Shown piece by piece: positions 22,889-42,892 of a stretch of DNA of 64,000 nucleotides. The position numbers and the translations under genes were made by a program. This DNA is from Chaetoceros tenuissimus (lineage: Eukaryota > Bacillariophyta > Thalassiosirophyceae > Chaetocerotales > Chaetocerotaceae): the NCBI GenBank assembly GCA_021927905.1, contig BLLK01000049.1, positions 326,836-390,835 of the forward strand, given 5' to 3'. The notes below the pieces were generated by a model that ran no database searches, was not told the DNA's origin, and saw only the letters and a program-made list of their open reading frames with translations. Positions within the stretch are counted from its first letter, which is position 1. Each line of letters opens with the position of its first letter.

Positions 22889-24279
22889 ATGACTTCCACT
22901 CCAGAAACTACTAAACTAACATCAGAGGAATTCTTTGCACAAGATGATTTATCAATGGTCAACTCTGTCAAAAGTTCTACTTCAAATTCTTCCTCTATAG
23001 ATTTCAACGACACATCCCACATCTCCATGCCATCTCAACATTTAAATAACGGCATTTCCAACAGCCACAATTTGAAAGATTACGGCAGTCTTCCAAGAAT
23101 CACAGATGAATCCGATCTCTCAACATTAAAAGATGACAATACATTCTTTTCCGAAGCAGAATCATCAGCTGCGAATAAAAATACTCCATTGAGACGTTTG
23201 GCAATTGACATGAGTCTCTATCTCAATCTCATTATTTTAGCTTCGAAATTGATTGCTTACATTCAGACTCTTTCCTTGTCGGTATTGGCTGCACTTACGG
23301 ATTCTTTACTAGATGTCATTTCACAGCTTGTTTTAAATTATACTGAAAAGCATTCGACGAAATCGCGATCGTCGGCTTTGTATCCAGCTGGTGCGGCTCG
23401 ACTTGAACCTGTCGGAGTATTGACATGTGCGGCCTTGATGGGTAAGTTATCTATTTTATAAAATGACATATTTTGTACAAATGAGAGATTTTCTTGCTCA
23501 TCTTTATCGCATTAGGAATGGCTTCCTTCGAAATTCTCAAGGAAAGTATTGAATCACTCTTGTATGATGGAAATGTCATGCATGAACATTTACAAGATGG
23601 TCAGAATCTTTCGTCCGTTTATGGAATGACATTTATTGTATTTATCAAACTTGGATTATACTATTTATGTGAATACAGTCGACCACTCAAGACATCGAAT
23701 ATTGGTGGGACAGTCGTGAAGCAATCCATGAAAGTTTCAGATCCGACTTTGGAAGCTTTGGCGCAAGATCATTGGAATGATGCGCTTTCGAATGGTGTGG
23801 CTGCTATCGCTTTGTGTGCGGCGCTTTGGTCCAAGGATTTGTGGTTTTTAGATCCTATTGGTGCAATTATTATTTCGGTATACATTATTTATTCGTGGTA
23901 TGAAACTGGCAAGGAACAGATTGAACAATTGACTGGGAAATCTGCACCGGATGATTTTATTGATGAATTGTATGATATCGCGAGTAACTTTGATAAACGT
24001 ATGATAGTAGACGTTGTGAGAGCATACCATTTCGGACCAAAGTTCTTGGTAGAGCTTGAAGTTGTGCTTCCAAAGGATACTCTTTTGATGGAATCTCATG
24101 ATTTGGGCATGGAGTTGCAGTATGAAATTGAAGGAAGAGAAGAAGTAGAGCGGTGCTTTGTTCATATTGACTATGAAATGAGGCCTTATGATGAGCACGT
24201 TGTGAGTAAAGTTCCAGAACTTAGAGCCAAGTATCGTCCAAGTGCCAGTCATATGAGTTTTGGCAATCATTCTGTATAA
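22889..24279 (+). CDS. Mn-type cation diffusion facilitator (CDF) transporter, two exons
   Basis: Exon 1 is 22889-23441 and exon 2 is 23516-24279, separated by a 74-bp GTAAGT...TAG intron. The product has 438 residues. The ATG at 22889 is preferred over earlier in-frame codons because the family N-terminus is polar and follows it (MTSTPETTK). The first 100 residues are Ser-rich and cytosolic. Six membrane segments follow. The two metal sites read DSLLD (TM2) and DHWND (TM5). The DxxxD form, rather than HxxxD, is typical of the manganese-type MTP8-11 group, so Mn2+/H+ exchange at an internal membrane is likely. The C-terminal cytosolic domain is present (VVRAYHFGPKFLVELEVVLP). Confidence 0.88.
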
Positions 24280-24424: not shown

Positions 24425-27400
24425 TCAACTCTTCTCTCTACTGTCTTCCTCTTCGTCCTCTTGGCCACATACTGCCTTTGCTATCCTCCCAAACAACTCA
24501 TCTCGACGCAAATCACGCTTACTTGTTATCCGTGCTCTGCATATCGGGCATTCCTTTCCGCATTTTGCAATTGCATCTTCTATGCATACATAGCAAAAGC
24601 GATGGCAGCATTCCGGAACTATGCATGGATCTTTCATAGGATTGAAACAAATTGGACATTGAAGGTCTTCTTGCAAATCTTTCGCAAATGCTTGCATTTC
24701 TTGTAGTTGTTTGTTCATTGCCAATTGCTGTTTGAGTCTTTCAATTTCGTTGTTTTTCGCGTCTATGATTGAGTCCTTTTCCTTTACTATCTTATCCATT
24801 TTCTTCTTATATTCATCGTCAATTCTACCAGATGCAGGTCCACAATCGATAGAGTCTATTTTCAATGCAGCAAACTGTTTGTACTTTTTATCTTGTATCA
24901 AAGGCTTCGCCTGAAATACAGTTTCCATAAGTGCAATCTCAAAATGATGCAATCCTTTTGATGCTGTATTCTTGAGCTCGTCATGGCGATCTTCGTCTGT
25001 ACATTTCTTAGTACCTTTGTTGAACCATGCCTCATCATAGGCTCCAATATTGTATTGTCTATTGTAGCTGTTAAGGAATCTCTGTAAATCACTATATAGT
25101 CTTTCAGAATTGACATCCAAAGAGCAGTCTAAGTAGCCATCTTCTAGCTTCAACTTGAATATTCTTTGCAAACGAACCCACTTCGTCCAATTAATGAAAG
25201 TTGTCTGCATGCAACGAAATTTGTTGTAAATCTCCAAGTTAAGACCATCATTGTCGAATGTAGGGTCACAACAAGATAATTGGAAATGATTTGAAAAACG
25301 AGTGACATACCACCAAGGAGGTATCCCATCGCACCTTAATTCTTCTGGTAGCTTATCGTGATCCTGGTATTTGATGAAAAGAATGAGAGCTGAGAAGTAG
25401 TTCAGGTATCGCATTGCTCTTGTTCTCCATATGTTCTTTGATCTGAGTTCAGATGGTGCTTGAGGGTATGCAAATACTTTCAATATTGTAAACATGAAGT
25501 TCCACATTTTGTCTTCCGACGCACAACAATTGGTGCTAATATCATAGTTCTTGATGAAGTCTACTGATATGGGATATAGTAAAGCTTGTGGTATGACAAT
25601 CTTGCTTGGAAATCCTTTTAGTTGTAATTTTTCTTCTTCCCTGGATATATTTTTGGCTCGTTTCTCTTTGGTGCTCTTCACATTATTATCATCTTTACAA
25701 GCTAAGCTCCGTTTCGAAACTTTAGTGATGTTATTCAAATCATTGCTGTCATCACTATCTATGCTTTGTGTCGTTATTCCTTCAATCAAATTACGATCGT
25801 CAGTACTACTTGATCTGCCTTGCTTTGTACTTGCATTAGTACTCTTTGAATCTACATGCTTCTTGGCACCCGAAAGTAGCAGATGTTTGATAGACGCTGC
25901 ACCATTGAATCTATTTTTGACATCATTATCTGTTCTTCCATTCATACACTTGGCAATCTCGGCCCAACTATTTCCTTTTTCTTTTTGTAACTTCACCAGC
26001 AACAAGTCTTCTTCTTTTGTCCATGCATTTTTATTAATGTTTGGATCCAAATGATTACACCATCTATCTCGACACTGAGGGGCTGTCTTTCCTTCGAACT
26101 CTTTTGCAATTAAAGTCCACTTCTTTCCATGTATCTTGATTAATGTAACCAACTTTGCATCCTTTTCAGGACTCCATCTCTTACTGCTTATTGGACCTTT
26201 TCTATTCACACTGATTTTCATATTATTTGGCGGTATATGTTCCGACCACCGTTCTTCACATTCTGCAGCTGATCTTCCTTCCATCTCGTTAGATATTACA
26301 GTCCAATTTAGTTCGAAACCATATTTTTCAACAAGTTCGCGAAGCTTTGTATCCTCATGTAGCTTCCATGGAATGAATGTTGTTGTGAATTGAGAATTCC
26401 ATCGATATTGACATTGTTCACTTGTACGATTTGGGACTTCTTCTGCAATCCTTTTCCAGTTGCTTCTACCTGTGTTTGTCCTTCCATGCTTTTTAACTGA
26501 TGCAAGAAGAGCTTTGTCTTCTTCCGCGGTCCACGTGGTCCAATGCTTCACTTTCAAGCCGACATGTTCCTCTTCTTCGGTAATCCATCTCTTTCTTTTT
26601 AATGATTCCGATTTCTTGTTTGGAGTATGGTTGACTTTGTTATTCCCTGTCTTCTCAGCTGCTTTATGTGACACTCTCTTTTTACAGTCGTCGTCTTCAT
26701 CATATTTCAATGGTTCTCTCATATTAACATCCTCTGCTATGTAATTTGGGCTAGCTCTCTTCGGAGTTTCAGACCTAATTTGATTCTTATTCTTTTCACT
26801 GGCTGTTCTTGCAGACTGTGTATTGTCTTCTCTTGGTGTATTAATCAATGTAGCAGGTTTGAATGTCATTGATTTATGATCTTCTTCATTACGTCTGGGA
26901 GTTCTTCTCTTCCCAAGCGAGTATGGCTTGTCAACTGGTCCTACCCATCCATATTTTTTGTGTGCAAACTCTTTTATATCATCTTCTGTTTCAAAGTAAT
27001 GTACATTTCTAGTAAGAGTACTCTTCTTGAAACCTATGAATTCTTTCATGTATCGAGTGGTGCTAACAGCTGAAGGGTACTGCAATTGATTAACAAATTC
27101 AAGTACAGAGTACATAACTTGCCAATCAGAATTCTTGTCAGGGAAATCTATCTGTGGACCGGTCCAACCATAAATTTTGTGTACAGCTTTTATAGCTGCT
27201 TCCTCCGTCACATAATAGTCTACATTTTCAATCCAAGTCTTTTTTACATACTCTAGACCATTTTCTTCATATTCAAGGCCACCAGGAATGTAGTAAGTAG
27301 AAATAAAACCTCCTTGACCAGGAACTACATTCCAACCAAAATGATTTACAAGAATTTCCAAGGCATTAGACCATGGCTCTAACTTTTCCTCTCTGCTAAA

Positions 27401-28723
27401 CTTCCTCTTTTTGGAAGAGCGTTTTTCCTTCTTTGACGAAGAACCGGTCACTTTTGATGGCACAATATCCTTAGCATCTGCAGTAGTGACTACTTCTTTC
27501 TTTGCATTCTCATCTTTTTGTCGTTTCGAAGTGGTAGATATTACAGTAGCTCTATTCAAAGAATCACTTTTTCTACTAGCTAATCGATCCCTACGATCCA
27601 CTTTTGCATTTCTGACAGGTGGTCGCTTGAGTTTCTCGAATTGATATTTGGAAAGTCGAGTAGTTTGTCCGGATGATAGAGAGTCCCTAGTATCATTTTT
27701 CTCTATCGAGACAACTTGCTTTCGCTTGAAAGAAGCCGAATTGAATCTATTTTTGACATCATTTTCTGTTCTTCCCTTCATATATTTGGCAATCTCTACC
27801 CATTTATTTCCTTTCATTTTCTGCAACTTTTCAAGCAACAAATCTTCTCTATCAGTCCATTCACCTTTCTTGATATTAGGAGCTAAGTGGTTAAGCCATC
27901 TCTCTCGGCACTGTTTGCCTGCCCGTTTCACGTTGGATTGTTTCATTAATACTTTTGCTATAATTGTCCACTCATGATGACCATGTATCTTCACCAATTT
28001 CATCAACTTTGCATCATCTTCAAGAGACCAACGCGTAAAATGCCCACTCTGAGCAGTCTTTCTGTTTTTACTTGGAGGTTGCTTATGGTCAATCTCGCGC
28101 CAACGTTCCTGACATTGTCTAGCCGATCTTCCTTTCATCTCTTTAGATATTACGGTCCATTTTCGTTTGCAACCATGTTTTTCAACAAGTTCGCGAAGCT
28201 TCGAATCTTCTAACCTTTTCCATGGATTGGGCGATATTTGTTTCAATTTTGTCATCCATCTATGGTAACATTGATTGGGTGTTGCACCTTGGACTTCAGT
28301 AGCAATCTCTTCCCAGTATCCATAACCATACTTGTTGACAGAATTTCTAAGCGCTTCATCATCCTGGCTTGTCCACTTCTTGTATTTCCCTCGTGACTTT
28401 TTTGTTTCATGTATTGTAGTTGCTTCGAAAACTTCTGTCCCACAATCTTCTTCTTCTTCTTCCTCTGCTATGTCCATTTCTTCTGCCTCTGATAGATCAA
28501 TATCTTCTTCCTCTGATAAATAACTTGCATCTTCTTCGTTACCATCTTCAAAATCAGAATCTGAATATTCCTCGTTAAACATGCCTTCCGATCCATTCAG
28601 ACGTTTACGTAGACGCATGTTGAATCTTTGCCTCTTTCTAGGTAAAGATTCTTTCTCGACTTCAACTTCGCTTTCTTCTCCAAGTGATACTTCACTTTCA
28701 TCGTCTTCTTGGTATTGAAACAT
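24425..28723 (-). CDS. Eight-repeat Myb protein with C-terminal RING finger (array gene 1)
   Basis: A single exon of 1432 residues from ATG 28723 with the array's MFQYQE start. Myb/SANT repeats 1-4 occupy about residues 115-330 and repeats 5-8 about 720-930; each has the W-x(18-21)-W pattern. Between them, 440-600, are two copies of a module ending KxYGWxGP. Residues 1010-1300 hold a helical domain shared with array genes 3 and 4 (NYFSALIL.IKYQDHDKLP; GIPPWWYV). A short coiled coil precedes a C3HC4 RING at about 1354-1395 (CPIC...CHRFC...CPIC). DNA binding coupled to ubiquitin E3 activity in the nucleus is the natural inference. The two four-repeat Myb blocks look like an internal duplication. 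Confidence 0.8.
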   Translation of the reverse strand: MFQYQEDDESEVSLGEESEVEVEKESLPRKRQRFNMRLRKRLNGSEGMFNEEYSDSDFEDGNEEDASYLSEEEDIDLSEAEEMDIAEEEEEEDCGTEVFEATTIHETKKSRGKYKKWTSQDDEALRNSVNKYGYGYWEEIATEVQGATPNQCYHRWMTKLKQISPNPWKRLEDSKLRELVEKHGCKRKWTVISKEMKGRSARQCQERWREIDHKQPPSKNRKTAQSGHFTRWSLEDDAKLMKLVKIHGHHEWTIIAKVLMKQSNVKRAGKQCRERWLNHLAPNIKKGEWTDREDLLLEKLQKMKGNKWVEIAKYMKGRTENDVKNRFNSASFKRKQVVSIEKNDTRDSLSSGQTTRLSKYQFEKLKRPPVRNAKVDRRDRLASRKSDSLNRATVISTTSKRQKDENAKKEVVTTADAKDIVPSKVTGSSSKKEKRSSKKRKFSREEKLEPWSNALEILVNHFGWNVVPGQGGFISTYYIPGGLEYEENGLEYVKKTWIENVDYYVTEEAAIKAVHKIYGWTGPQIDFPDKNSDWQVMYSVLEFVNQLQYPSAVSTTRYMKEFIGFKKSTLTRNVHYFETEDDIKEFAHKKYGWVGPVDKPYSLGKRRTPRRNEEDHKSMTFKPATLINTPREDNTQSARTASEKNKNQIRSETPKRASPNYIAEDVNMREPLKYDEDDDCKKRVSHKAAEKTGNNKVNHTPNKKSESLKRKRWITEEEEHVGLKVKHWTTWTAEEDKALLASVKKHGRTNTGRSNWKRIAEEVPNRTSEQCQYRWNSQFTTTFIPWKLHEDTKLRELVEKYGFELNWTVISNEMEGRSAAECEERWSEHIPPNNMKISVNRKGPISSKRWSPEKDAKLVTLIKIHGKKWTLIAKEFEGKTAPQCRDRWCNHLDPNINKNAWTKEEDLLLVKLQKEKGNSWAEIAKCMNGRTDNDVKNRFNGAASIKHLLLSGAKKHVDSKSTNASTKQGRSSSTDDRNLIEGITTQSIDSDDSNDLNNITKVSKRSLACKDDNNVKSTKEKRAKNISREEEKLQLKGFPSKIVIPQALLYPISVDFIKNYDISTNCCASEDKMWNFMFTILKVFAYPQAPSELRSKNIWRTRAMRYLNYFSALILFIKYQDHDKLPEELRCDGIPPWWYVTRFSNHFQLSCCDPTFDNDGLNLEIYNKFRCMQTTFINWTKWVRLQRIFKLKLEDGYLDCSLDVNSERLYSDLQRFLNSYNRQYNIGAYDEAWFNKGTKKCTDEDRHDELKNTASKGLHHFEIALMETVFQAKPLIQDKKYKQFAALKIDSIDCGPASGRIDDEYKKKMDKIVKEKDSIIDAKNNEIERLKQQLAMNKQLQEMQAFAKDLQEDLQCPICFNPMKDPCIVPECCHRFCYVCIEDAIAKCGKECPICRARITSKRDLRRDELFGRIAKAVCGQEDEEEDSREKS

Positions 28724-28830
28724 CTTTCCCCGTCAAGTATACATGTATTGTAATATATAGAGAAACAGATTCTCATAGCAGCAGGAAAGGTTTTGTATTA
28801 TGATTCCATATGATGTTATATGTTTTCGAA

Positions 28831-28934
28831 GAACAAAAATGTGTGGTGAAAAGAATGAGGGACGTGTCACGTGTCATAGTAACCAAGCTATGGTCCCTAT
28901 CCACATAGAAATTTACATGGAAACAATGACGACC
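28831..28934 (-). promoter_or_regulatory. Conserved upstream block of array gene 1
   Basis: Contains AACAAAAATGTGTG, AATGAGGGA, GTGTCA, CATAGTAACCAAGCTATGG, CCTATCCACATAG and CAATGACGA in fixed order on the plus strand, 110-210 bp upstream of the start. The same series occurs before array genes 2-5. Confidence 0.6.
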
Positions 28935-29023
28935 CGAGAAAAGGCGAGAAAAATGATTCAATAGATGTATGCATTTATATTTTATTATTCAATCTTAAAG
29001 CATTCTTCTTTTTAATTCTTCTC

Positions 29024-30850
29024 TCAATTGTATTCTTCTACATCTTGGTAACATACTATCTCTGCTATCTTCCCAAACAACTCATCTCGACGTAAACTCC
29101 GCTTACTTGTTATCCTTGCTCTGCATACAGGACACTCCTTTCCACATTTTGCAATGGCATCTTCGATGCATGTATAGCAGAAGCGATGACAGCATTCAGG
29201 AACTATACAAGGGTCTTTCATTGGATTGAAGCATATTGGACATTGAAGGTCCCGTTGCAAATCTTTCGATAATGCTTGTTGCATTTCTTGTACTTGTTTG
29301 CTAATGCTTTCTTCTCTATTTTTCTCCTTCACCGGACTAGTCTTCAAACCGCCAGGTGCATTCATTTCAGCGGCGCTACTGTTTCCAGATGACTTTTTCG
29401 TCTTGATACTCTTCATCTTCTCCACAAATGCTTTGTTCACTTTTTCTAATGCAGCCTTAGCAGCAATTCTATTTCGATAGAGTTGACATAAACTTTCGTG
29501 ATAACATGCTTCGTCGTAAGAGTAGAAGTAAGCCTCTTTACAAACATCACAGCAATAACATTTACCATCAAGGATAGTTTTGGAGCCGAGAGGGAAATTA
29601 GAATGGGGATCTACCTCTACATCTACCTTTGCCCTTTTCGCTGCATCAATTTGCATTTCTACTTCCATCCGTTTCATAGCAACTTTCTTTTTTTCCAATT
29701 GTAGTTTGAGTCTTTCAATTTGCATGTTTCGTACATCTATCTTTTTATTTAGAGCTTCTATTGGTGAGTCCTTTTCATTCTTTTTCTCCGGCAATTGCTT
29801 TTGCAGTCTTTCAATTAGTGCAACTATGACTGATTTCCTTTCGGTCTTATTTGACAACTGCTGTTTGAGTCTTTCAATCAGTTCATCTATTACCAAGTTC
29901 TTTTCATTCTTCTTTGATAGTTTCTGTTTCAGTCTTTCAATCTCTTCCATTTGTGAAAAGATGACTGTGTCCTTTCCGCTGTTGGCCAAATTTAGGAATT
30001 CTATTACTGAGTTGTTCTTTGCCAATTGCTCTTTCAGTCTTTTAATTTCTGTATTTCGTGCCTCTGTTGCTGTTTCCCTTTCGTTCAACTGTGCCAATTG
30101 CTCTTTTATCTCTTTCTTGAGGGCTTCTATTACTGAGTCCTTTTCATCGTTCTTTGCCAATCGCTCTTTCAGTCTTTTATTCTCTTTCTTAAGAGCTTCT
30201 ATTACTGAGTCTTTTCCATTCTTCTTCTGCAATTGCTTCTTCAGACTTTTAATCTTTTTCTTTGGAGCTTCTATGATCGAATCTTGTTCATAAATTTCTT
30301 TTCCCATGCGCCGTTTTGACCTTGTATTATTAATCCCGTTGCTGCCATCATTAGTAGCTGTACCTTGCGTTGATTTTCCTTCTATTAAATTACAAGTGGT
30401 AGTAATACTTGATCTGCCTCGCTTTGAACTTGTATTGGTACTCTTTGAATCTACTGTCAAGAGTACATGATTGATTGAAACTTCTTCATTGAACCTATCA
30501 ATACGTCGACTAGCTAACCGATCTTTACGATCCACTTTTGCATTTCTGACAGGTATTCGTTTTTGTTTCTCCAGTTGATATTTGGATATTCGAGTGGTGG
30601 GTTTTGTAGGTGATTTATGTTTCCTTCTGTCGGCGAGGAAAGCACTGGGTATCTTTACACTTTTGCTGCATTTACTTTTCACTTTAGGTTCTTTTCTCAA
30701 AGGAATCTCTTTAGATCCCTTCAGGAGATGTTTCTTCAAACGTACATTAAATCTCTGTCCGCTCCTAGTTAAAGATTCTTTCGTCCCTTTCTTTTTACTC
30801 TCTTCCACAATCGATGCCTTACTATCACTTTCTTCTTGGTATTGAAACAT
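29024..30850 (-). CDS. Coiled-coil, small zinc-finger and RING protein without Myb repeats (array gene 2)
   Basis: The start is the ATG at 30850 (MFQYQEESDS), matching the paralogs; a longer upstream frame exists but is unlike them. Length 608 residues. The N-terminus (RFNVRLKKHLLKG) is shared with genes 1 and 4, but no Myb repeat follows. Residues about 200-400 are repeated coiled-coil units of the form DSVIEALKKEIxRLKxQL. A Cys/His module (CDVCKEAYFYSYDEACYHESLC) sits near 435-460 and a C3HC4 RING near 530-575, nearly identical to that of gene 1. It may be a dimerising E3 ligase that acts with, or competes with, the Myb-bearing paralogs. Confidence 0.75.
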   Translation of the reverse strand: MFQYQEESDSKASIVEESKKKGTKESLTRSGQRFNVRLKKHLLKGSKEIPLRKEPKVKSKCSKSVKIPSAFLADRRKHKSPTKPTTRISKYQLEKQKRIPVRNAKVDRKDRLASRRIDRFNEEVSINHVLLTVDSKSTNTSSKRGRSSITTTCNLIEGKSTQGTATNDGSNGINNTRSKRRMGKEIYEQDSIIEAPKKKIKSLKKQLQKKNGKDSVIEALKKENKRLKERLAKNDEKDSVIEALKKEIKEQLAQLNERETATEARNTEIKRLKEQLAKNNSVIEFLNLANSGKDTVIFSQMEEIERLKQKLSKKNEKNLVIDELIERLKQQLSNKTERKSVIVALIERLQKQLPEKKNEKDSPIEALNKKIDVRNMQIERLKLQLEKKKVAMKRMEVEMQIDAAKRAKVDVEVDPHSNFPLGSKTILDGKCYCCDVCKEAYFYSYDEACYHESLCQLYRNRIAAKAALEKVNKAFVEKMKSIKTKKSSGNSSAAEMNAPGGLKTSPVKEKNREESISKQVQEMQQALSKDLQRDLQCPICFNPMKDPCIVPECCHRFCYTCIEDAIAKCGKECPVCRARITSKRSLRRDELFGKIAEIVCYQDVEEYN

Positions 30851-30933
30851 GTTCTCCGTCAAATAGACATGCAATCTAACTTGAACATGTATTAGAAAAA
30901 GAGTTGTCAAGTCAGTACAAGATATATTTTAAA

Positions 30934-31039
30934 AGAACAAAAATGTGTGGTAAAAGATGAGGGACGTGTCACCACGGGTCAGTCATAGTAACCCAGCTAT
31001 GATCCCTATCCATATAATTTTGATTCAACAATGACGACC
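30934..31039 (-). promoter_or_regulatory. Conserved upstream block of array gene 2
   Basis: AACAAAAATGTGTG, GAGGGACGTGTCA, CATAGTAACCCAGCTATG, CCTATCCATATA and CAATGACGA appear in the same order as before gene 1. It starts about 84 bp before the ATG. Confidence 0.6.
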
Positions 31040-31119
31040 ATAAAAGAGGGCAGGAATAATTTAATAAGTACATTTATGCATTTATACTATATTGCTTCAA
31101 ATTTATAGCTTTCTTTGTC

Positions 31120-34100
31120 TTAGTTCTTCTGACTGTCTTCTTCTTCGTCGTCCTCTTGGTCACATACTACCTCTGCTATCCTCCCAAACAACTCATCTCG
31201 CCGTAAACCACGCTTGCTCGTTATCCTTGCTCTGCAGATCGGACATTCCTTTCCGCATTTGGCAATAGCATCTTCGATGCATGTAAAACAGAAACGATGG
31301 CAGCATTCAGGAACTATGCATGGGTCTTTCATGGGATTGAAACAAATTGGACATTGAAGGTCTTCTTGCAAATCTTTCGAAAAAGTTTCCATTTCTTGTA
31401 ATTTTTTATTATGCAGTTTGAGTCTTTCAATTTCGATGTTTTGTGCATCCATGATGTGGTCCTTTTTCTTGTTTTTTGACACTTGGTGTTTGAGTCTTTC
31501 AATTTCCCTTTTTTGTGTATGTATGATTGAAGAGTACTTTCCCTCGTTCTTCAATATTTGTTGTTGAACATTTTCAATCTCCTCCAGTTGTTTTCTGAGT
31601 CTTTCAATCTCCTTACTTTGTGCGTCTACAGTTGAGTCCATTTCCGTAATATCATCTGCCTTCTTCATTTCTACCTTCTTGGTCTCAACTTCATTATGCA
31701 TGATATCTGTTGCAGGTCCAAAATTGACAGAGTCTATCTCCAAAGTAGCAAACAATTTGAATTCTTTACCTTGTATCAAAGGCTTCGCCTGAAATACTGT
31801 CTCCATAAGTGCTATTTCGAAATGATGCAATCCCCTAGATGCTGTTTTCTTGAGTTCATCATAGCGCTTTTCGTCTATACATTTCTTCGTATCTTTGTTG
31901 AACCATGTCTCGTCATAGGCTCCATAACGGTATTGCGAGTTATAAGTATCCAGGAATTTTTGCAAATCACCATAGTAACTTTTCTTGTTCTTATTGATCA
32001 CGCATTTGGTGAATAGCGGTTTCAAATACCCATCTTCTGATCTGTAATTATCACTACAAACTGAATGAGCACTATGTGCATCACACCAGCTGTAATTTAT
32101 CCATTGTCTGAAGCTTAAGTTCATTTCACGATATTCACTGCGAATGATTTTGCCAAAATGATCATCGTTGTTATCATTGGCATTCCTGGTGGGAATTGAT
32201 GGAGATGGCAATTCAAAGCGATTGAAGAAACGGACTACATACCACCAAGGAGGTATGCCATCATGTCTTAATTCTTTTGGTAGTTCATCATGATCCTGAT
32301 ACTTGATCAAGAGGATGAGAGCCGAGAGATAGTTTAGATAGTGTTTCGTTTTGTTTCTCCACCTTTCTATAGATGTAAGTTCAGCGGGTGCTTGAGGGTA
32401 AACAAATACTTTCAATATTGAAAACATGAAGTCCAACATCTTCGCCTCGAGTTCATCATAGCTACTTGTGTACTTCTTTATAAAATCTATCGATAAAGGT
32501 CTTTGAAGCGTTTCTGGCATGGCAATCCTTCTTTCAAACCCTTTCAGCTGTCGATCAGCTCTCTTTAATTTGCGATTAAATCGATTTCTAACCTCCTGAG
32601 CCGTTCTACCCACTTCATTCGCAATCACTGTCCATTTATTTCCTCTTTCCTTATGAAGTTTGATGATACTCAAATCTTCTTCAATTGACCAATTTTGTTG
32701 TGGCGCACTGACTCTCAGCGGCTCACTAACTTTTAAAGAGTCATTCCATCGATGGTAGCATTGCTGCTCTGTCCGACAAGGCATACCTTTTGCAATAGTT
32801 TTCCAATCTCTTTCTTTATTCTTTTCAACAGCTGAACGAAGCGCTTCATCTTCCTCCACACTCCAATTCTGCTGAGGACTTTTCTTTGTATTACTATCTT
32901 GTGTCTTATTTCTTGAAGCAACTTCAGTACTTTCTTCTTCGTTTTCTTCTAGCTGCAATACTATATCTTCATTTTCAGGTTGCATATATCTTCTGAATTT
33001 CAAAGTGCTATGCCACCGTTGGGTACATTGGTTCATTGTGCGACTAGGTACTTCTTTTACAATGGTTGCCCAATCTTTTTCCCAACCTTTTTCTTTATTC
33101 TTTTTGACAGCTAAGCGAAGTGCTTCATCTTCTTCCACAGTCCATTTCCTTCCATGTGGTCTCTTTGTATTGCTACCTTTTGTTTTGTTTGTTTTAGGAA
33201 TTGGAATATCATCCTTTTCGTTAATGCCCTCGATATTAGATTCTATATCTCTTGATTTTACGCTCAGTCTTTGCTCTTTATCTGATGCATTTTGTACTGA
33301 TCTTGTTTTTGATCCTTTGCGATGTCTACGTAATTTATTGCCCACATCAATCTGTGCTACGAGATCCTTGGTAGTTGCTACACCTACTCTCTTTGGTCTT
33401 TTTTTGGTGCCATTATCATCAGTGCCATCGTGACCAGCTAAGCATCGTTTCGACCTTGTATTGGAATTATTTGAATCACCACCGTCGTTACTAGCTGTGC
33501 CTCGCGTTAATTTTCCTTCTGTCAAATTGCAATCAGCAGTAGTAACTACTGTAACTCGTCTTGATCTTGTACTGATATTATTCGAGTCGACTCGTCTCAG
33601 CTTACTTACTCTCATAACGTTTACTGAAGAACTCCTATTCCTTCTCTTGACCGATTCTAATTTTTTAGGACGTTTTCTATTTACAATCTTTTTCTTCTCC
33701 TTTTTCTTTGGAGGTATATGCTCTAACCAACGTTGCTCACATTCTGTAGCTGATCTTCCTTCCATCTCTTTAGATATTATGGTCCATTGTAGTTCAGAAT
33801 CATGTTTCTCAACAAGTTCGCGAAGCTTTCTGTCCTCATACAGTTTCCATGGAATCATAAATTTTCTATTCCATCGACAGTGACACTGTTCAATTGTACG
33901 ATTTGGGACGTCTTCTGCAATCCTTTTCCATTTGTTTCTACCCGTCCTAGTCTCCCCATGCTTTTCGACAGATTTACGAAGTGCTTCGTCTTCTTCCGCG
34001 GTCCATTTCTTGAATTTCGCCATTTGATAATTCCATCTATTGTTACATTGTACCCCATTACGATTTGGGACTTCTTCTGCAATCCTTTCCCAGTTTCCCC

Positions 34101-34182
34101 TTGTCTCCCCATATTTTTTAACAGACGCACGAAGTGCTTCGTCTTCTTCCGCAGTCCACCAATAGTGATGTTTTACTTCCAT
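31120..34182 (-). CDS. Six-repeat Myb protein with RING finger (array gene 3)
   Basis: 1020 residues from ATG 34182 (MEVKHHYWW). Repeats 1-3 lie in residues 5-165 and repeats 4-6 in about 335-525, separated by a basic, Ser/Asn-rich linker. The helical domain with GIPPWWYV lies at about 540-840, then coiled coil, then C3HC4 RING near 940-985. The paralogous start MFQY is present just upstream (34204-34193), but a TAA at 34192-34190 closes it and the Myb frame is offset. Translation must therefore use the second ATG. The gene has lost the N-terminal module but keeps DNA-binding and RING parts, and probably still works. Confidence 0.78.
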   Translation of the reverse strand: MEVKHHYWWTAEEDEALRASVKKYGETRGNWERIAEEVPNRNGVQCNNRWNYQMAKFKKWTAEEDEALRKSVEKHGETRTGRNKWKRIAEDVPNRTIEQCHCRWNRKFMIPWKLYEDRKLRELVEKHDSELQWTIISKEMEGRSATECEQRWLEHIPPKKKEKKKIVNRKRPKKLESVKRRNRSSSVNVMRVSKLRRVDSNNISTRSRRVTVVTTADCNLTEGKLTRGTASNDGGDSNNSNTRSKRCLAGHDGTDDNGTKKRPKRVGVATTKDLVAQIDVGNKLRRHRKGSKTRSVQNASDKEQRLSVKSRDIESNIEGINEKDDIPIPKTNKTKGSNTKRPHGRKWTVEEDEALRLAVKKNKEKGWEKDWATIVKEVPSRTMNQCTQRWHSTLKFRRYMQPENEDIVLQLEENEEESTEVASRNKTQDSNTKKSPQQNWSVEEDEALRSAVEKNKERDWKTIAKGMPCRTEQQCYHRWNDSLKVSEPLRVSAPQQNWSIEEDLSIIKLHKERGNKWTVIANEVGRTAQEVRNRFNRKLKRADRQLKGFERRIAMPETLQRPLSIDFIKKYTSSYDELEAKMLDFMFSILKVFVYPQAPAELTSIERWRNKTKHYLNYLSALILLIKYQDHDELPKELRHDGIPPWWYVVRFFNRFELPSPSIPTRNANDNNDDHFGKIIRSEYREMNLSFRQWINYSWCDAHSAHSVCSDNYRSEDGYLKPLFTKCVINKNKKSYYGDLQKFLDTYNSQYRYGAYDETWFNKDTKKCIDEKRYDELKKTASRGLHHFEIALMETVFQAKPLIQGKEFKLFATLEIDSVNFGPATDIMHNEVETKKVEMKKADDITEMDSTVDAQSKEIERLRKQLEEIENVQQQILKNEGKYSSIIHTQKREIERLKHQVSKNKKKDHIMDAQNIEIERLKLHNKKLQEMETFSKDLQEDLQCPICFNPMKDPCIVPECCHRFCFTCIEDAIAKCGKECPICRARITSKRGLRRDELFGRIAEVVCDQEDDEEEDSQKN

Positions 34183-34189
34183 TCTCTTC

Positions 34190-34204
34190 TTAGTATTGAA
34201 ACAT
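34190..34204 (-). pseudogene. Remnant MFQY-stop start of array gene 3
   Basis: ATG TTT CAA TAC TAA on the minus strand. Paralogs read MFQYQE here, so CAA has become TAA. The next codons (EENGSK) still resemble the family. Now it would act as a five-codon upstream ORF. Confidence 0.65.
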
Positions 34205-34262
34205 GTTACCGATCAAGTAGCTGATCGTCGTGTCAATTGTAAAGATATGTGTTTTCAAGTTA

Positions 34263-34366
34263 GAACAAAATGTGATGAAAAAGAATGAGGGAGGTGTCAG
34301 CAGTCATCAGTCATAGTAACCCAGCTACGGCCCCTATCCAAATAGGCGAATCAAAACAATGACGAT
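34263..34366 (-). promoter_or_regulatory. Conserved upstream block of array gene 3
   Basis: GAACAAAATGTGATG, GAATGAGGGAGGTGTCA, CATAGTAACCCAGCTACGG, CCCTATCCAAATAG and CAATGACGA in the shared order. Two small substitutions relative to genes 1 and 2. Confidence 0.6.
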
Positions 34367-34458
34367 TGATTCTATAATGATGAGAGGAATGAAGAAGGAA
34401 TAGAGACAAAATCAACTAATGGGCGCACATTATTATTTGGTATACAATTATCATATAA

Positions 34459-36759
34459 TTACATCAAATTCTTCTTGCCAACATCTTCTTTGTCCTCTTG
34501 GTCACATACTACCTCTGCTATCCTCCCAAACAACTCATCTCGACGGAAGTCACGCTTACTCGTTATCCTTGCTCTGCAGATCGGACATTCCTTTCCGCAT
34601 TTGGCAATAGCATCTTCAATACATTTATAGCAAAAGCGATGACAGCATTCGGGAACTATACAAGGGTCATTCATAGGGTTGAAGCATATTGGACACTGAA
34701 GGTCTTCTTTTAAGTCTTTCGATAATGCTTGCATTTCTTGTAATTTTTTATTATGCAGTTTGAGTCTTTCAATTTCGATGTTTTGCGTATCTATGATTGT
34801 GTCCCTGTTCTTGATTTCCTTTTCCATTTTCTTCTGAAACTCAATATTTACAGAATCCTGCGTAGGCCCACAATCTATAGAGTCAATTTTCAATGCAGCA
34901 AACTGTTTGTATCTTTTATCTTGTATCAAAGGCTTCGCCTGAAATACTGTTTCCATAAGTGCTATCTCGAAATGATGCAATCCTCTTTTGGCTATTTGCT
35001 TGAGCTCGTCATGGCGATCTTCGTCTGTGCATTTCTTAGTATCTTTGTTGAACCATGCCTCGTCATACGCTCCGACGTTGTATTGTCTATTGTAGCTGTT
35101 AAGGAATCTCTGTAAATCACCGAATAGTCTTTCAGAATTTGTATCCAAAGAGCAGTCTAAGTAGCCATCTGCTGCCTTGAAAATAAAATTCCCCGTGAAC
35201 ATCCAAATATTTGTCTCGATGATAAAATACACATTCAGGACATCATATGCGACGTTAATCTCTTTGCTAAAATTGTCATCATGTGGATTATCATATCTTG
35301 ATTTGTGATTTCTAGTTAATTTGAAATGATTGAAGAAACGAACTACATACCACCAAGGAGGTATGCCATCGCAACTTAATTCTTCTGGTAACTCTTCGTG
35401 ATTCTGATATTTGATTAGAAGAATGAGCGCTGAGAAGTAGTTCAGGTATCGCATTGTTCTTGATGTCCATATTGTCTGTGATCTGAGTTCGACAGGTGCA
35501 TGGGGGTATTTAAAACCTTTCAATATTGAAAACATGAATTCCCACATTTTTGTATCTTTCAATTTGTTTTCATTACTATAAATCAAATTTTCGAAGGTAA
35601 TATCAACATTATAGTTCTTGATGAAGTCCACTGACATGGGACTCTGTAAAGCTTCTGGTACAACAATCTTTCTTGTGAATCCCTTCAACTGTACATTTTC
35701 TTCGCTTGATATATTTTTGGCTCGTTTCTTTTTGGTGCTCTTCACATTATTATCATCTATACCAGTTAAGCGTCGTTTCGAACCTTTGGTGATGTTATTC
35801 AAATCATTGCTGTCATTACTTTCTAAACTTTGTGTCGATTTTTCTTCTATCAAATTACGATCAGCGGTCCTACTTGATCTACCTTGCTTTGTACTTGCAT
35901 TAGTACCCTTTGAATCTGCACCTGCAAGGAGCTTATGTTTGATAGACGTGAACTTATTTTTGATATCATTTTCTGACTTTCTGTTAGTTTCAGTAGCACT
36001 ACTTGATTTTCCTTGCTTTGTACACATATTGGTAGTACTCTTCAAGTCAACATGCCTCTTGGTATCTGTAAGGAGCAGACGTTTGATGGAAGCTCCGTTG
36101 AATCTATTTTTGATATTATTTTCAGTTCTTCCATTCATACACTTGGAAATTTCTGCCCAACTATTTCCTTTTTCTTTCTGTAACTTTATAAGCAACAAGT
36201 CTTCTTCTTTTGTCCATGGACTTTTATTAATATTTGGATCTAAATGATTACACCATCTTTCTCGACATTGAATGGCTGACTTCACTTTGAAGACCTTTGC
36301 TATTGAAGGCCACTTCTCTCCATGTTTCTTGACTAATCCAACCAACCTTGCATCCTCTTCAGGAGTCCATCTCTTCTTACTTATTGGACCTTTTGTATTC
36401 ACACTGATTTCATTATCCTCGTCGGCTTGATGGGCTCGTCTACTAGCCAACCGATCTTTACGATCAACTCTTGCATTTCGGACAGGTGGTCGCTTTTGTT
36501 TCTGCAATTGATATTTGGAAATTCGAGCAGTAGATTTTGCAGATGATAGGTTGTTCTTTCTATCGGCGAGGGAAGTACCGCGTTTCTGTTTGGCTTTAGG
36601 CCGTCTTTGTATGCCTTTCAATCCCTTCAGGAGATTTTCCTTCAAACGTACGTTAAATCTCCGTCCGCTCCTGGTCAAAGATTGTTCTTTCGCCTCTTTC
36701 TTTTTACTCTCTTCTGCATACGATGCTTCGCTTTCATTATCTTCTTGGTATTGAAACAT
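34459..36759 (-). CDS. Two-repeat Myb protein with RING finger (array gene 4)
   Basis: A single exon of 766 residues, ATG 36759, start MFQYQEDNES. After the shared basic RFNVRLKENLLKG region, two Myb repeats fill about residues 125-230 (RWTPEEDARL... and PWTKEEDLLL...). They are closest to the last two repeats of gene 1. A Ser/Lys-rich linker, the helical domain (GIPPWWYVVRFFNHF), a short coiled coil and the C3HC4 RING near 685-728 follow. It is the simplest complete example of the family layout, and might resemble the ancestral form. Confidence 0.8.
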   Translation of the reverse strand: MFQYQEDNESEASYAEESKKKEAKEQSLTRSGRRFNVRLKENLLKGLKGIQRRPKAKQKRGTSLADRKNNLSSAKSTARISKYQLQKQKRPPVRNARVDRKDRLASRRAHQADEDNEISVNTKGPISKKRWTPEEDARLVGLVKKHGEKWPSIAKVFKVKSAIQCRERWCNHLDPNINKSPWTKEEDLLLIKLQKEKGNSWAEISKCMNGRTENNIKNRFNGASIKRLLLTDTKRHVDLKSTTNMCTKQGKSSSATETNRKSENDIKNKFTSIKHKLLAGADSKGTNASTKQGRSSRTADRNLIEEKSTQSLESNDSNDLNNITKGSKRRLTGIDDNNVKSTKKKRAKNISSEENVQLKGFTRKIVVPEALQSPMSVDFIKNYNVDITFENLIYSNENKLKDTKMWEFMFSILKGFKYPHAPVELRSQTIWTSRTMRYLNYFSALILLIKYQNHEELPEELSCDGIPPWWYVVRFFNHFKLTRNHKSRYDNPHDDNFSKEINVAYDVLNVYFIIETNIWMFTGNFIFKAADGYLDCSLDTNSERLFGDLQRFLNSYNRQYNVGAYDEAWFNKDTKKCTDEDRHDELKQIAKRGLHHFEIALMETVFQAKPLIQDKRYKQFAALKIDSIDCGPTQDSVNIEFQKKMEKEIKNRDTIIDTQNIEIERLKLHNKKLQEMQALSKDLKEDLQCPICFNPMNDPCIVPECCHRFCYKCIEDAIAKCGKECPICRARITSKRDFRRDELFGRIAEVVCDQEDKEDVGKKNLM

Positions 36760-36836
36760 CTTTCCCTGTCAAGTAGAATATATTCTACTGTATAGAAACA
36801 TAGTGACTGTCTTCAGTTGAAAAGATATATTTTCAA

Positions 36837-36928
36837 AGAACAAATGTGTGATGAAAGAATGAGGGAAGTGTCAACATAGTAATCCAGCTATGGTCGCTAT
36901 CCACATAGTTCAATGAACCAATGACGAT
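36837..36928 (-). promoter_or_regulatory. Conserved upstream block of array gene 4
   Basis: GAACAAATGTGTGATG, GAATGAGGGAAGTGTCA, CATAGTAATCCAGCTATGG, GCTATCCACATAG and CCAATGACGA in the shared order. Almost identical to the block before gene 5. Confidence 0.6.
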
Positions 36929-37090
36929 CCTGAAAATGACGAGAGGAATAAATTGAGGAGATAGAAAATTGAAAGCATTTCAAAAATTAATTTTCATATA
37001 GATATTATATAAGTGCATCAAATTCTACATAGTTTTCATATACTCGTATTCAACATTCCAGCTTGAAATGCTTTGCCTCTTATTCTTTTT
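36837..37090 (+). repeat. Direct repeat, copy 1 (with 39133-39393)
   Basis: About 255 bp, nearly identical to 39133-39393. It spans the promoter block and the A/T-rich spacer down to CCAGCTTGAAATGCTTTGCC. It marks the duplication that made array genes 4 and 5. Confidence 0.7.
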
Positions 37091-37238
37091 TACATGCAGT
37101 GACAGCATTCAGGAACTATATATGGATCTTTCATAGGAAGCAAAGTGGACATTAAGGTCCTGTCGCAAATCTTTCAAGAATGTTTGCATTTCATGTACTC
37201 TTTTGTTCATGCTTTCTCTTGCATTCTTTTCAACCTGG
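37090..37238 (-). pseudogene. Decayed RING-finger end of array gene 5
   Basis: Downstream of the TAG that ends gene 5, a shifted frame reads SQVEKNARESMNK and FLKDLRQDL, matching the linker before the RING in gene 2. After another shift come PMKDPYIVPECCH and a stop. The first Cys pair and everything after CCH are gone. The RING was lost by several small changes. Confidence 0.75.
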
Positions 37239-39047
37239 CTAATCTTCAAAGTTGCAAGGTACATTGTCATCGTTGCCAGATGACTTTTTCATATTGATAC
37301 TTTTCATCTTCTCTGCCAATGCTTTGTTCACTTTTTCTAATGCAGCTTTAGCAGCAATTCTATCTCTATAGATTTGACATAAACTTTCGTGATAACAAGC
37401 TTCGTCGTAAGAGTAGAAGTAGGCCTCTTTACATACATCACAGCCATAACAATCACCAACAAGGATAGTTCTTGAGCCGAGAGGAAAATTAGCGAGGGGA
37501 TCTACCTCTACATCTACTTTTGCCGTTTCGGTTACATCAATGTGCGTTCTTAATTTCTGCTGTTGTTTGAGTCTTTCAATTTGAATGTTTCGTGTATCTA
37601 TCTTTTTACTGCAGGTTTCTATTATTGAGTCCTTCTCATTTTTCTTCAGTAATTGCTTCTTCAGCCTTCCAATCAGTGCAATTATGTCTGATGCCCTTTC
37701 GGTCTTATTTGACAATTGCTGTTTCAGTCTTTCAATCATTTCATCTATTACAAAGTTCTTTTCGATCTTCTTCAGCAATAGCTGTTTCAGCCTTTCAATC
37801 TCTTTGTTTTTTGCATTGATGGCTAAGTCTTTTCCGGTCTCATTTGCCAATAAATGTTTCACATCTTTCTCAAGCTGTTCTATTGCACAGTCGTTTTCAT
37901 TCTTCCTTTGCAATTGCTGTTTCAGTCTTTTAATCTCGTCGTTTAGGGGTTTCTTCTGCTTCGACAGTTGCTTCTTCAGCCTTTCAATCAGTGCATATAT
38001 GACTGATTCCCTTCCGGTCTCGTTTGCCAATTGCTCTTTCAGTCTTTCAATCATTTCATCTATTACAAAGTTCTTTTCGTTCTTCTTTGGTAATTGCTGT
38101 TTCAGCCTTTCAATCTCTATGTTTTGTGCATTGATGGCTAAGTCCTTTCTTTCAATCTCTTTCGCGAGGGCTTCTATTTCCGAACCCACTCCATTCTTCT
38201 CTGGCAGTTGCTGCTGTTTCAGTCTTGCAATCAGTGCATGTGCAACTATGATTGATTCCCTTTCGTTCTTGTTTGACAATTGCTGTTTCAGCCTTTCAAT
38301 CAGTGCATCTATGACTGATTCCCTTTCGTTCTTATTAGCCAATTGCTGTTTTAGTCTTTCGTTCTCTTTGTTTAATGCGATTATTATCAAATCTTTTTCA
38401 TTAATGTCTTCTTCTGTGAGTAGTGTGCATATTTGAGAAGTTTTCATTGAAGTTGCTACACCTGTACCTCCTCTCTTGGGTCTCTTTTTTGTGATATCTG
38501 TATCAATGTCATCTGTACTAGTTAAGGGCCGTTTCAACCTTGTATTTGAATTATTTGAATTACCACCGTCATTACTAGCTCTTGATTTTCCTTCTGTCAA
38601 ATTACCAGCAGCACTACTTGATCTACCTTGCTTTGTACATATGCTAGTATTCTTTGAATCTACATATTTCTTGGCATCCAAAAGGAGCAGACGTTTGATT
38701 GAAGTCCCATGGAATCTATTTTTTACATCATTTTCTGTTCTTCCATTCATACACTTGGCAATCTTTGTCCAACTATTTCCTTTCTCTTTCTGTAATTTTA
38801 TAAGCAACATGTCTTCTTCTTTTGTCCATGGACTCTTATTAATGTTTGGATCCAAATGATTACACCATCTATCTCGACACTGCATTGCTGACTTTACTTT
38901 GAAGACATTTGATATTAAAGTCCACTTCTTCCCATGTAACTTGATTAATCTAATCAACTTCGCATCCTCTTCAGAAGTCCACTTCGTCCCGTGGTTTCTT
39001 GGACCTTTTCTTTTTATATCCTTTTGTTTCGGAGCTATATTCTTCAT
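37239..39047 (-). CDS. Two-repeat Myb, coiled-coil and zinc-finger protein lacking RING (array gene 5)
   Basis: 602 residues from ATG 39047. The upstream TTG in the frame is not a plausible start. There is no MFQYQE module: the conserved promoter end is joined directly to the segment just before the Myb repeats. Two Myb repeats cover residues 20-120. A very long coiled coil fills about 205-490, built of units like NERESVIxALIERLKQQL. The CDVCKEAYFYSYDEACYHESLC module lies near 520-545. A TAG at 37239 comes before the RING, whose remains follow. It could bind DNA and dimerise without ligase activity, acting as a natural dominant-negative form. That is inference. Confidence 0.72.
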   Translation of the reverse strand: MKNIAPKQKDIKRKGPRNHGTKWTSEEDAKLIRLIKLHGKKWTLISNVFKVKSAMQCRDRWCNHLDPNINKSPWTKEEDMLLIKLQKEKGNSWTKIAKCMNGRTENDVKNRFHGTSIKRLLLLDAKKYVDSKNTSICTKQGRSSSAAGNLTEGKSRASNDGGNSNNSNTRLKRPLTSTDDIDTDITKKRPKRGGTGVATSMKTSQICTLLTEEDINEKDLIIIALNKENERLKQQLANKNERESVIDALIERLKQQLSNKNERESIIVAHALIARLKQQQLPEKNGVGSEIEALAKEIERKDLAINAQNIEIERLKQQLPKKNEKNFVIDEMIERLKEQLANETGRESVIYALIERLKKQLSKQKKPLNDEIKRLKQQLQRKNENDCAIEQLEKDVKHLLANETGKDLAINAKNKEIERLKQLLLKKIEKNFVIDEMIERLKQQLSNKTERASDIIALIGRLKKQLLKKNEKDSIIETCSKKIDTRNIQIERLKQQQKLRTHIDVTETAKVDVEVDPLANFPLGSRTILVGDCYGCDVCKEAYFYSYDEACYHESLCQIYRDRIAAKAALEKVNKALAEKMKSINMKKSSGNDDNVPCNFED

Positions 39048-39132
39048 CAAGTAGACATGTATTGTAATATATAGCAGATCCTCATACCAATGGGAAAAGT
39101 AGTTTATGATACTTATTGTGTGTTTTCAGTTC

Positions 39133-39222
39133 AAAGAACAAATGTGTGATGAAAGAAGAATGAGGGAAGATAGTAATCCAGCTATGGTCGCTATCCACAT
39201 AGTTCAATGAACCAATGACGAG
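39133..39222 (-). promoter_or_regulatory. Conserved upstream block of array gene 5
   Basis: GAACAAATGTGTGATG, GAATGAGGGAAG, ATAGTAATCCAGCTATGG, GCTATCCACATAG and CCAATGACGA. The GTGTCA part present in the other four is deleted here. Confidence 0.6.
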
Positions 39223-39393
39223 CCTGAAAATGACGAGAGGAATAAATTGAGGAGATAGCAAAGAAAGATGGATGAAAGAGATTGAAAGCATTTCAAAATT
39301 AATTTTCATATAGATATTATATAAGTACATCAAATTCTACATATTTTTTATATATTCAACATTCCAGCTTGAAATGCTTTGCCTCGTATTTTT
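39133..39393 (+). repeat. Direct repeat, copy 2 (with 36837-37090)
   Basis: Second copy of the promoter-plus-spacer segment, with a short extra stretch near 39258-39282. Similarity ends at GCTTTGCCTCGTA. Confidence 0.7.
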
Positions 39394-39490
39394 TTCTGTA
39401 CGTTTCGAAATGGATCTAACCGACAAGAGGAATTGCTTCTACAACCTTCAAGCTGCTCAACTTGTCCCTATTATAATTTCGACTTTACTT

Positions 39491-40591
39491 CTAGAAATTA
39501 CAGCACTTTTCTGTGCAAAAGGCTGAACATCGTTTCTTTTTCAATAATATCTCATCATGATCAGTAACTTGCAACAATGATCTCTTGCCTGGAGTAACCA
39601 ATGGATTCCGAAATCCCAGCACTACTCCATTTTGATGAGGCGTGAACTGAAACGAGAAAAATCTATGAGCATGAGGTGGCTGTGGCGGTGGAGAAGGAGA
39701 AGATGCACATGCCTCTACATCTCCATGAGACTCATCATCCGCACCAACACAATCATCACCATGTTTCTGCTTCCATCTCTGTCGACATTGCGTTGGCATC
39801 CTTCCTTTCATTTCAAGTGCAATTTTGGACCATTTCTTGATAGATCCATATTTATCCACAAGCTGTTCCAATTTCTCATCTTCTCCATCCGTCCATGGTT
39901 CAAAGGAAGTATGTTTGAGAGTCCCCACCCATCGACTTTGACATTGACTCCAAATGGTTCCTGGTATCTTTTTCGCAACCTCTTGATAATCAATGACTTT
40001 TCCTTGATTCGTATATTCCAAAACAGCTTGTCTCAATAATTCATCTTCTTCCGGCGTCCATCGCTTGTATCCACCCCTCGGACACAATCCTCGATGGTCT
40101 TGTTCTTGCCTCTCACATTCACTTTCACTTTCATCTTCTTCCAAACTCTCGATATGTTTCAATTTACATTTTTTCTGCAACTTTTTGATAAATCGATGTT
40201 TCACTTGATAATCTGTCTTTTGTAAAGCCCTACCAATCTCATTCCATTTCCTTTTCTCTTGCACAAATTTCTCCAACAATATATCCTCATCTTGACTCCA
40301 ATCCTGTTGTAAATTCAATAACAAACATTTCCGCCATCGATCTCTACATTTCGAAGCATTACGATTATGAAAGTGTGTAGAGATTGTATGCCATTTCGTG
40401 CCATGTTTTTGAATTAAATTGTAAAGTTTATAATCTTCCCTTGCTGACCAGGCAGAACGGACTTGCTTTACTTGTTTTGTCGTTTGTTTCGTTTGTTTCT
40501 TGTGTGTGTTGTTTTCTTTGGAGGAACAAGAAGAATGAGATGGTGATTCTCCATCTGCTTGTTCTTCACTTGTTTGTTGGTATTGAAACAT
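39491..40591 (-). CDS. Four-repeat Myb protein (array gene 6)
   Basis: A single exon of 366 residues with start MFQYQQTSEE. Repeats lie at about 45-95 (AWSAREDYKL), 97-143 (DWSQDEDILL), 178-232 (RWTPEEDELL) and 234-283 (PWTDGEDEKL). The tail holds NGVVLGFRNPLVTPGKRSLL and ends Cys-rich. There is no coiled coil, helical domain or RING, so this looks like a plain DNA-binding regulator. Its MFQYQ start and position at the head of the array link it to the other five. The upstream region keeps CAATGACGA near 40756 but not the full conserved block. It may be the outgroup from which the Myb-RING genes arose, or a truncated member. Confidence 0.82.
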   Translation of the reverse strand: MFQYQQTSEEQADGESPSHSSCSSKENNTHKKQTKQTTKQVKQVRSAWSAREDYKLYNLIQKHGTKWHTISTHFHNRNASKCRDRWRKCLLLNLQQDWSQDEDILLEKFVQEKRKWNEIGRALQKTDYQVKHRFIKKLQKKCKLKHIESLEEDESESECERQEQDHRGLCPRGGYKRWTPEEDELLRQAVLEYTNQGKVIDYQEVAKKIPGTIWSQCQSRWVGTLKHTSFEPWTDGEDEKLEQLVDKYGSIKKWSKIALEMKGRMPTQCRQRWKQKHGDDCVGADDESHGDVEACASSPSPPPQPPHAHRFFSFQFTPHQNGVVLGFRNPLVTPGKRSLLQVTDHDEILLKKKRCSAFCTEKCCNF

Positions 40592-42589: not shown

Positions 42590-42892
42590 TTTTCTCTCTT
42601 CTTATTATTTTATGGAATTGTAGGCGCACATCTTGTGTTTGGCTTTGACCACTGGAGTTGCTTCGTCAGCAATTCGAGGAATTGCATTCTTCATATTCTT
42701 AGTCAGGAAGGAACGCTTTCTTCATTCTTCGTCAAGAAAGAACGCTTTCTTCGGCTTTGAACCAATCAGAAGATGCCAACCGAGATTTCCCTCCAAAATG
42801 AAATGTATTCTACGTCAGTCTATCTCTAGGTGATCTCTGAAATTCAAAAATCTACTCCGAATGGAAGCTCATTTTTCAAGAAATTACGCAAA

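Follow-up and report, generated by a model that had tools for sequence, protein, structure and literature searches.

A tandem Myb and RING gene array in the diatom Chaetoceros tenuissimus, predicted to encode DNA-tethered ubiquitin ligases with a RING1-like RING

What is the task of a protein that carries pairs of Myb repeats and ends in a RING? This question is raised by an array of six genes in the diatom Chaetoceros tenuissimus, which spans positions 24425-40591 of a 64,000-nucleotide stretch of contig BLLK01000049.1 (assembly GCA_021927905.1, positions 326,836 to 390,835, forward strand; this whole stretch is called the window here). The initial annotation had suggested that such members would be direct DNA-targeted ubiquitin ligases. 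That is still the best reading, with ligase activity and DNA binding standing as predictions, and it can be sharpened: the RING is RING1-like and possibly nucleosome-anchoring. We propose that the array may encode DNA-tethered ubiquitin ligases (E3) with a RING of the type found in RING1, a subunit of Polycomb repressive complex 1 (PRC1), predicted to act on histone H2A. We put the probability of this reading at about 0.45.

A RING most like that of RING1B

The RING lies at the C-terminal end of genes 1-4, and all eight of its zinc ligands are retained in each of them. Its Pfam scores are near the cut-offs, above that of zf-C3HC4 (21 bits) in 4 of 4 and below that of zf-C3HC4_2 (27 bits). By sequence, by profile and by Foldseek, the RING is most like that of RING1B (RING2). 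A search with the gene 4 RING alone gave 57 bits for RING2 chains vs 42 for TRIM21, and among multi-RING chains 71 bits for a RING2-BMI1 chimera (two RINGs) and 45.9 for an RNF4 double RING. A profile of 15 RINGs scored 85 bits on RING2, 53.6 on TRIM25, 52.1 on RAD18 and 45.9 on BMI1; on RNF4 it reached 80.5 bits only as a two-RING chain, and 45 for a single RING. The structural model of the gene 4 RING, in which a 46-residue helix precedes the RING, has a mean predicted local distance difference test (pLDDT) score of 90.4, and chains of RING1B lead its Foldseek matches, with 3rpg_C at the top (E 3.1e-6, 38% identity).

The likeness extends to residues with a known task. K93, K97 and R98 of RING1B touch the acidic patch of the nucleosome, and R98 weighs most, the change R98A costing 50-fold (PMC4693283). 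At the equivalent positions all four array RINGs have R, K and R. A further 28 RINGs of the family all retain R98 and K/R97, and 21 of the 28 retain K/R93. This set takes the first RING of each open reading frame (ORF), with the RAWUL gene described below and P0005 set aside. In a control with other RINGs of the genome (20 loci fetched, 11 of which yielded a RING by pattern), R98 was found in 4 and K/R93 in none of the 11. The ratio of nonsynonymous to synonymous substitution rates (dN/dS) of the RING is 0.05-0.10 across the six pairs of genes 1-4, vs 0.24 for the zinc module, 0.14-0.32 for the linker, 0.30-0.38 for the Myb pairs and 0.18-0.45 for a helical domain named GIPPWWYV after its motif.

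Five ORFs elsewhere in the genome carry two RINGs: C14:63697, C14:73904, C48:391755, C48:621378 and C22:53629 (L016, L017, L019, L020 and L022; C14 and the like are labels of contigs). Their second RINGs keep R98 in 3 of 5, and in all five a Lys stands at the positions of RING1B I53, which we take to be E2-facing, and R91. The first RING of C22:53629 is short of one zinc ligand. The protein at C48:391755 carries nine repeats.

Every array gene except gene 2 carries adjacent repeats of the R2R3 or three-repeat Myb type with the W spacing. The pair of gene 4 matches c-Myb (E 4.2e-36). As for the predicted substrate, the H2A genes found in the genome end in VLLPKKSSK or VLLPKKSGK and thus carry the lysine pair targeted by PRC1. 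A VEFS-box match, the mark of the PRC2 subunit SUZ12, is present as well. The only RAWUL match of the genome, at E up to 0.1, is C48:2354686; the protein has a RING with an N-terminal arm, and the RING2 match starts at that arm. It is likely the true RING1 of this genome, and a RING1 ortholog has been described in Phaeodactylum (De Potter et al.; PMC10638273).

On this basis, we suggest the following mechanism. The Myb pairs, kin to the cell's own three-repeat Myb, would bring the protein to DNA, and the coiled coil beside the RING would make dimers, replacing the pairing of RING1 with PCGF. The RING would load a ubiquitin-conjugating enzyme (E2), dock on the nucleosome acidic patch via its kept Arg/Lys anchor and monoubiquitinate the C-terminal tail of H2A, thus repressing the site. 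Myb copies without a RING, namely gene 6, and gene 5 after its RING loss, may compete for the same sites, and gene 2, with a RING and no Mybs, would need another recruiter.

Possible other substrates and roles

Several points weigh against this proposal. The array shares with RING1/RING1B, the catalytic subunit of PRC1, the RING sequence, the predicted fold, the acidic-patch anchor and a genome with the H2A tail lysines; in contrast, it has its own Myb repeats and coiled coil with the RING at the C terminus, no RAWUL domain was found by Pfam in genes 1-6, no PCGF partner is identified, and in gene 4, the sole gene examined for it, the N-terminal arm of RING1 is absent and the RING2 match begins at the RING. 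The RING trees join the RAWUL gene with human RING2, away from the array RINGs (support 96/86 with BMI1 in the first tree, 93/79 in the second), and the array RINGs form a group of their own (99/98 and 93/85); these trees rest on 82 columns, contain long branches and have little resolution. The second tree left out the long-branched or degenerate L053, L055, L057, L059, L062 and L063, BMI1, the second RINGs and the C59:637878 fragment. The trees give no sign that the array RINGs descend from RING1, and on the sequence evidence they are not orthologs of the RING1 of PRC1. In Foldseek, RAD18, TRIM69 and TRIM21 follow RING1B closely; for the likeness, sequence is therefore stronger evidence than structure by itself. 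The conservation in the 28 RINGs is partly a selection effect, as most were chosen by their likeness to gene 4. Docking on the acidic patch is also described for other RING E3s, namely BRCA1 and Bre1 (PMC10959955) and RNF168 (PMC4693283). Finally, of the base contacts of c-Myb in R2 and R3, the R2 Lys is replaced in three of the four pairs compared (those of genes 4 and 5 and of the latter half of gene 1); the Lys-Asn-Asn of R3 is kept in genes 1 and 4, the last Asn being His in gene 5.

The strongest rival keeps the DNA tethering and changes the substrate: the ligases would remove other promoter-bound proteins, or themselves as short-lived transcription factors, and the RING1-like loop would be inherited and unused for nucleosomes. 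Some RINGs of this kind occur without Mybs, fused to ankyrin, LRR, PAH and HA domains, a pattern that points to substrate recruitment in general, and both the missing RAWUL and the placement apart from RING1 orthologs on the tree suit this rival. Against it, all 32 first RINGs in the set from this family retain R98 and K/R97, including RINGs that are far apart on the RING tree. We consider this rival somewhat unlikely.

A second rival sees an arms race in the manner of KRAB zinc-finger repressors: tandem arrays would diversify their DNA-binding repeats to keep up with transposons or viral minichromosomes, which the built-in RING would silence. Its evidence comes from a sister class on contigs C14, C22 and C48 with 17 SHAQKYF repeats, 12 in an ORF with a RING and 5 in neighbouring ORFs. 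At the four positions equivalent to what we take to be the base contacts of c-Myb, which were chosen after the sequences had been seen, the mean entropy is 2.66 bits vs 0.59 elsewhere (0 of 20,000 permutations), and the ratio of nonsynonymous to synonymous changes (pN/pS), counted along a spanning tree that links the repeats, is 1.15 vs 0.33 elsewhere (Fisher p 4.3e-5). In addition, the proteins that match one gene of the C16 cluster (see below) at E 1e-20 or better number 11, and 11 of 11 belong to C. tenuissimus, although other Chaetoceros relatives may be missing from the protein database. The window's own Mybs tell otherwise: the matched codon test (5 sets with 7 comparisons; the single pair of set E was skipped for unequal length) gave a pN/pS of 0.38 vs 0.40 (p 0.83), and diversifying selection was rejected for them. 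Their column entropy had seemed raised (p 0.0023), but two rows were misanchored and the repeats were of mixed class. An arms race is doubtful as the role of this array, and the likeness to KRAB zinc-finger proteins in diversification is limited here to the sister class.

A largely non-functional expansion, with tandem copies kept by chance and an inactive RING, is the least probable of the rivals; the decayed RING behind gene 5, the broken original start of gene 3 and the transposase beside the array fit it, and the low dN/dS of the RING, its eight zinc ligands in genes 1-4 and open frames of up to 1432 codons speak against it. A TRIM reading was dropped, as no B-box appears in the Pfam domain lists of genes 1-6 and the RING is C-terminal, and a search of viral contigs gave no support to a viral source of the RING.

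Growth of the array and its wider family

The array consists of six long open ORFs, all on the minus strand (Table 1), which are not chance frames: they reach 1432 codons, the Pfam E-values go as low as 3.5e-98, and the modules compared have a dN/dS of 0.05-0.45. Pfam and a hidden Markov model (HMM) built on 12 repeats taken from the array itself agree on 8, 0, 6, 2, 2 and 4 Myb repeats in genes 1-6, which confirms the combinations given by the initial annotation. Its pattern for the MFQYQ start also holds, with the start kept in genes 1, 2, 4 and 6, a relic before gene 3, and none seen in the stretch examined for gene 5. The GIPPWWYV domain (genes 1, 3 and 4) is modelled with a mean pLDDT of 43.9 (AlphaFold, 3 sequences). 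Outside the array it was found in 0 of 5.8 billion proteins, in a search that reaches only relatives sharing 5-residue words, in none of the 59 scored of 165 candidates in its own genome, and neither in viral contigs nor in phage records (tblastn of gene 4). Genes 2 and 5 share the CDVC zinc module and a long coiled coil made of 63-bp units; the sole NCBIfam result for the array is a weak SMC coiled-coil match in gene 2.

Table 1. Coordinates of the array genes and their modules in the window
Feature	Position	Strand	Content
Gene 1	24425..28723	-	MFQYQ start, 4 Myb, shared GP module, 4 Myb, GIPPWWYV domain, short coiled coil, RING
Gene 1 RING	24539..24658	-	
Gene 1 GIPPWWYV domain	24836..25624	-	Helical domain
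Gene 1 module	26788..27478	-	86% DNA identity to C14:693819-694500, candidate source locus
Gene 2	29024..30850	-	MFQYQ start, no Myb, long coiled coil (63-bp units), CDVC zinc module, RING
Gene 2 open frame	29024-30910	-	Includes the part before the MFQYQ ATG; ATG at 30850
Gene 2 RING	29123..29242	-	
Gene 2 CDVC zinc module	29390..29620	-	231 bp, 83% DNA identity to C27:193336-193566
Gene 3	31120..34182	-	6 Myb, GIPPWWYV domain, coiled coil, RING
Gene 3 RING	31234..31353	-	
Gene 3 GIPPWWYV domain	31714..32550	-	
Relic start	34193..34204	-	MFQY then stop, just upstream of gene 3
Gene 4	34459..36759	-	MFQYQ start, 2 Myb, GIPPWWYV domain, coiled coil, RING
Gene 4 RING	34576..34695	-	Inside the model of mean pLDDT 90.4
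Gene 4 GIPPWWYV domain	34864..35691	-	
Decayed RING	37100..37212	-	Downstream of the gene 5 stop, broken, out of the gene 5 frame
Gene 5	37239..39050	-	2 Myb, long coiled coil (63-bp units), CDVC zinc module, no RING in the ORF; TTG start, ATG at 39047
Gene 5 CDVC zinc module	37281..37511	-	231 bp, 88% DNA identity to C27:193336-193566
Gene 6	39491..40591	-	MFQYQ start, 4 Myb, no RING

How was such an array built? Neighbouring genes have upstream and coding blocks in common, at 64-88% DNA identity. The 231-base zinc block of genes 5 and 2 recurs on C27, in an ORF that holds one further such finger, with another on that strand in a different frame, and a block of gene 1 (693 columns) recurs on C14. 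These two loci may be sources rather than fellow copies. The locus would have grown by tandem duplication together with module exchange with genes elsewhere in the genome. The proposal of module shuffling, part of the initial annotation, is well supported by these candidate source loci for two modules, by the broken MFQY start and by the decayed RING. Gene 5 does not stand as a member designed without a RING: its stop is immediately followed by what is left of a RING, and it looks like a truncated former RING gene. This weakens the idea that Myb-only and RING-only members could pair through their coiled coils.

The six-gene array is real, but it is not the whole system. In the assembly searched (41.03 Mb, 68 contigs), gene 4 found at least 46 RING matches outside the window, with 59 of 165 candidates scored; some may share one gene. 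The RING proteins or ORFs outside the window that were scanned with Pfam, the RAWUL gene being kept out of the count, all carry one or more other DNA-binding or interaction domains (21 of 21 with Myb, HSF, MYND, HA, PAH, ankyrin or LRR_5). A cluster on C16 (3,232,132-3,270,330) holds nine RING ORFs, and the five that were scanned have Myb and RING in 5/5, MYND in 4/5 and HSF at E 0.001 or below in 5/5, one of them under the curated cut-off. In C22:264587 the order is reversed, with the Mybs after the RING. RING matches of equal E-value also occur on opposite strands of C66, at 4365/7857 and 25344/28836, which suggests a duplicated inverted unit.

A single origin of all Myb-RING fusions was tested on the RING tree, with groups named after the first RING tree had been seen. 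One clade of 21 rows was rejected (approximately unbiased test, p 0.0115), and the same clade without C22:264587 was not (p 0.524); the tree therefore indicates at least two joinings. The class of the Mybs would argue for a third.

The initial annotation knew of no such system in diatoms, in agreement with the titles and abstract openings of the open PMC literature, where no description of a diatom Myb-RING1 fusion family was found. Raised counts of RING-type, MYND, HSF, ankyrin and LRR genes are already given in section 9 of the C. tenuissimus genome paper (PMC8613185), and no discussion of Myb-RING fusions was found in the parts of that paper examined. In the main text of a study of virus infection of C. 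tenuissimus (PMC12305248), no word starts with ubiquitin, RING or Myb.

The array has varied neighbours in the window. On one side it is adjoined by a DDE_Tnp_4 (PIF/Harbinger-type) transposase together with a divergent ORF without a Pfam match (41273-42589, minus strand, and 42830-44254, plus strand). Two neighbouring ORFs also lie beside the array on the plus strand (22703-24279), the second of which (23494-24276) has a cation efflux domain, and a gene with an HSF-type DNA-binding domain is nearby at 20911-21738 on the minus strand. Farther away, two plus-strand ORFs (13118-16435) have Notch/LNR domains; a perfect 153-base repeat lies at 15496-15808, and the GC skew is 0.34 at 14-16 kb.

Known systems and implications

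Parts of this make-up are known from other proteins. MSL2 is described as carrying a RING and a DNA-binding CXC domain (PMC3447885). Like the array proteins, it joins the two on one polypeptide; its DNA-binding domain, however, is unrelated, and it belongs to an activating complex. The ligase activity of MSL2 is on H2B, its RING is not known to be of the RING1 type, and it is a single gene. The genome's own three-repeat Myb (c-Myb type, C27:2270044) has R2R3-like pairs with 61% identity to the Myb pair of gene 4, whereas array members have up to 8 repeats, most are fused to a RING, and the R2 contact Lys is replaced as described above. MYSM1, described as an H2A deubiquitinase with SANT, SWIRM and deubiquitinase domains, likewise joins a Myb/SANT-type domain to an enzyme of H2A ubiquitin, but takes the mark off rather than adding it; its enzyme is not known to be related. 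KRAB zinc-finger repressors with KAP1 also form tandem arrays with a variable number of DNA-binding repeats and a silencing effector with a RING; there the effector is recruited, whereas that of the array is built in, and the DNA-binding domain differs.

How Polycomb finds its sites is a long-standing question. It is conceivable, if quite unlikely, that the wider family is a plug-in H2A ligase of the Polycomb type: a lineage-limited set of single-chain, DNA-addressed, PRC1-like silencers, built by repeated fusion of one RING1-type RING to modules of the Myb, HSF, HA, PAH and ankyrin kinds. In this picture, transposons or viruses would drive diversifying selection on the residues with which one class reads DNA, as in KRAB zinc-finger proteins. 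The array would also show how chromatin proteins are assembled from exchanged modules, for which candidate source loci can still be seen. A RING1-type ligase with different DNA readers on one chain would make it possible to test directly whether targeted ubiquitination of H2A is enough for silencing, and the host for this test would be a diatom with a small genome that also keeps a RAWUL-bearing RING1 and the PRC2 mark.

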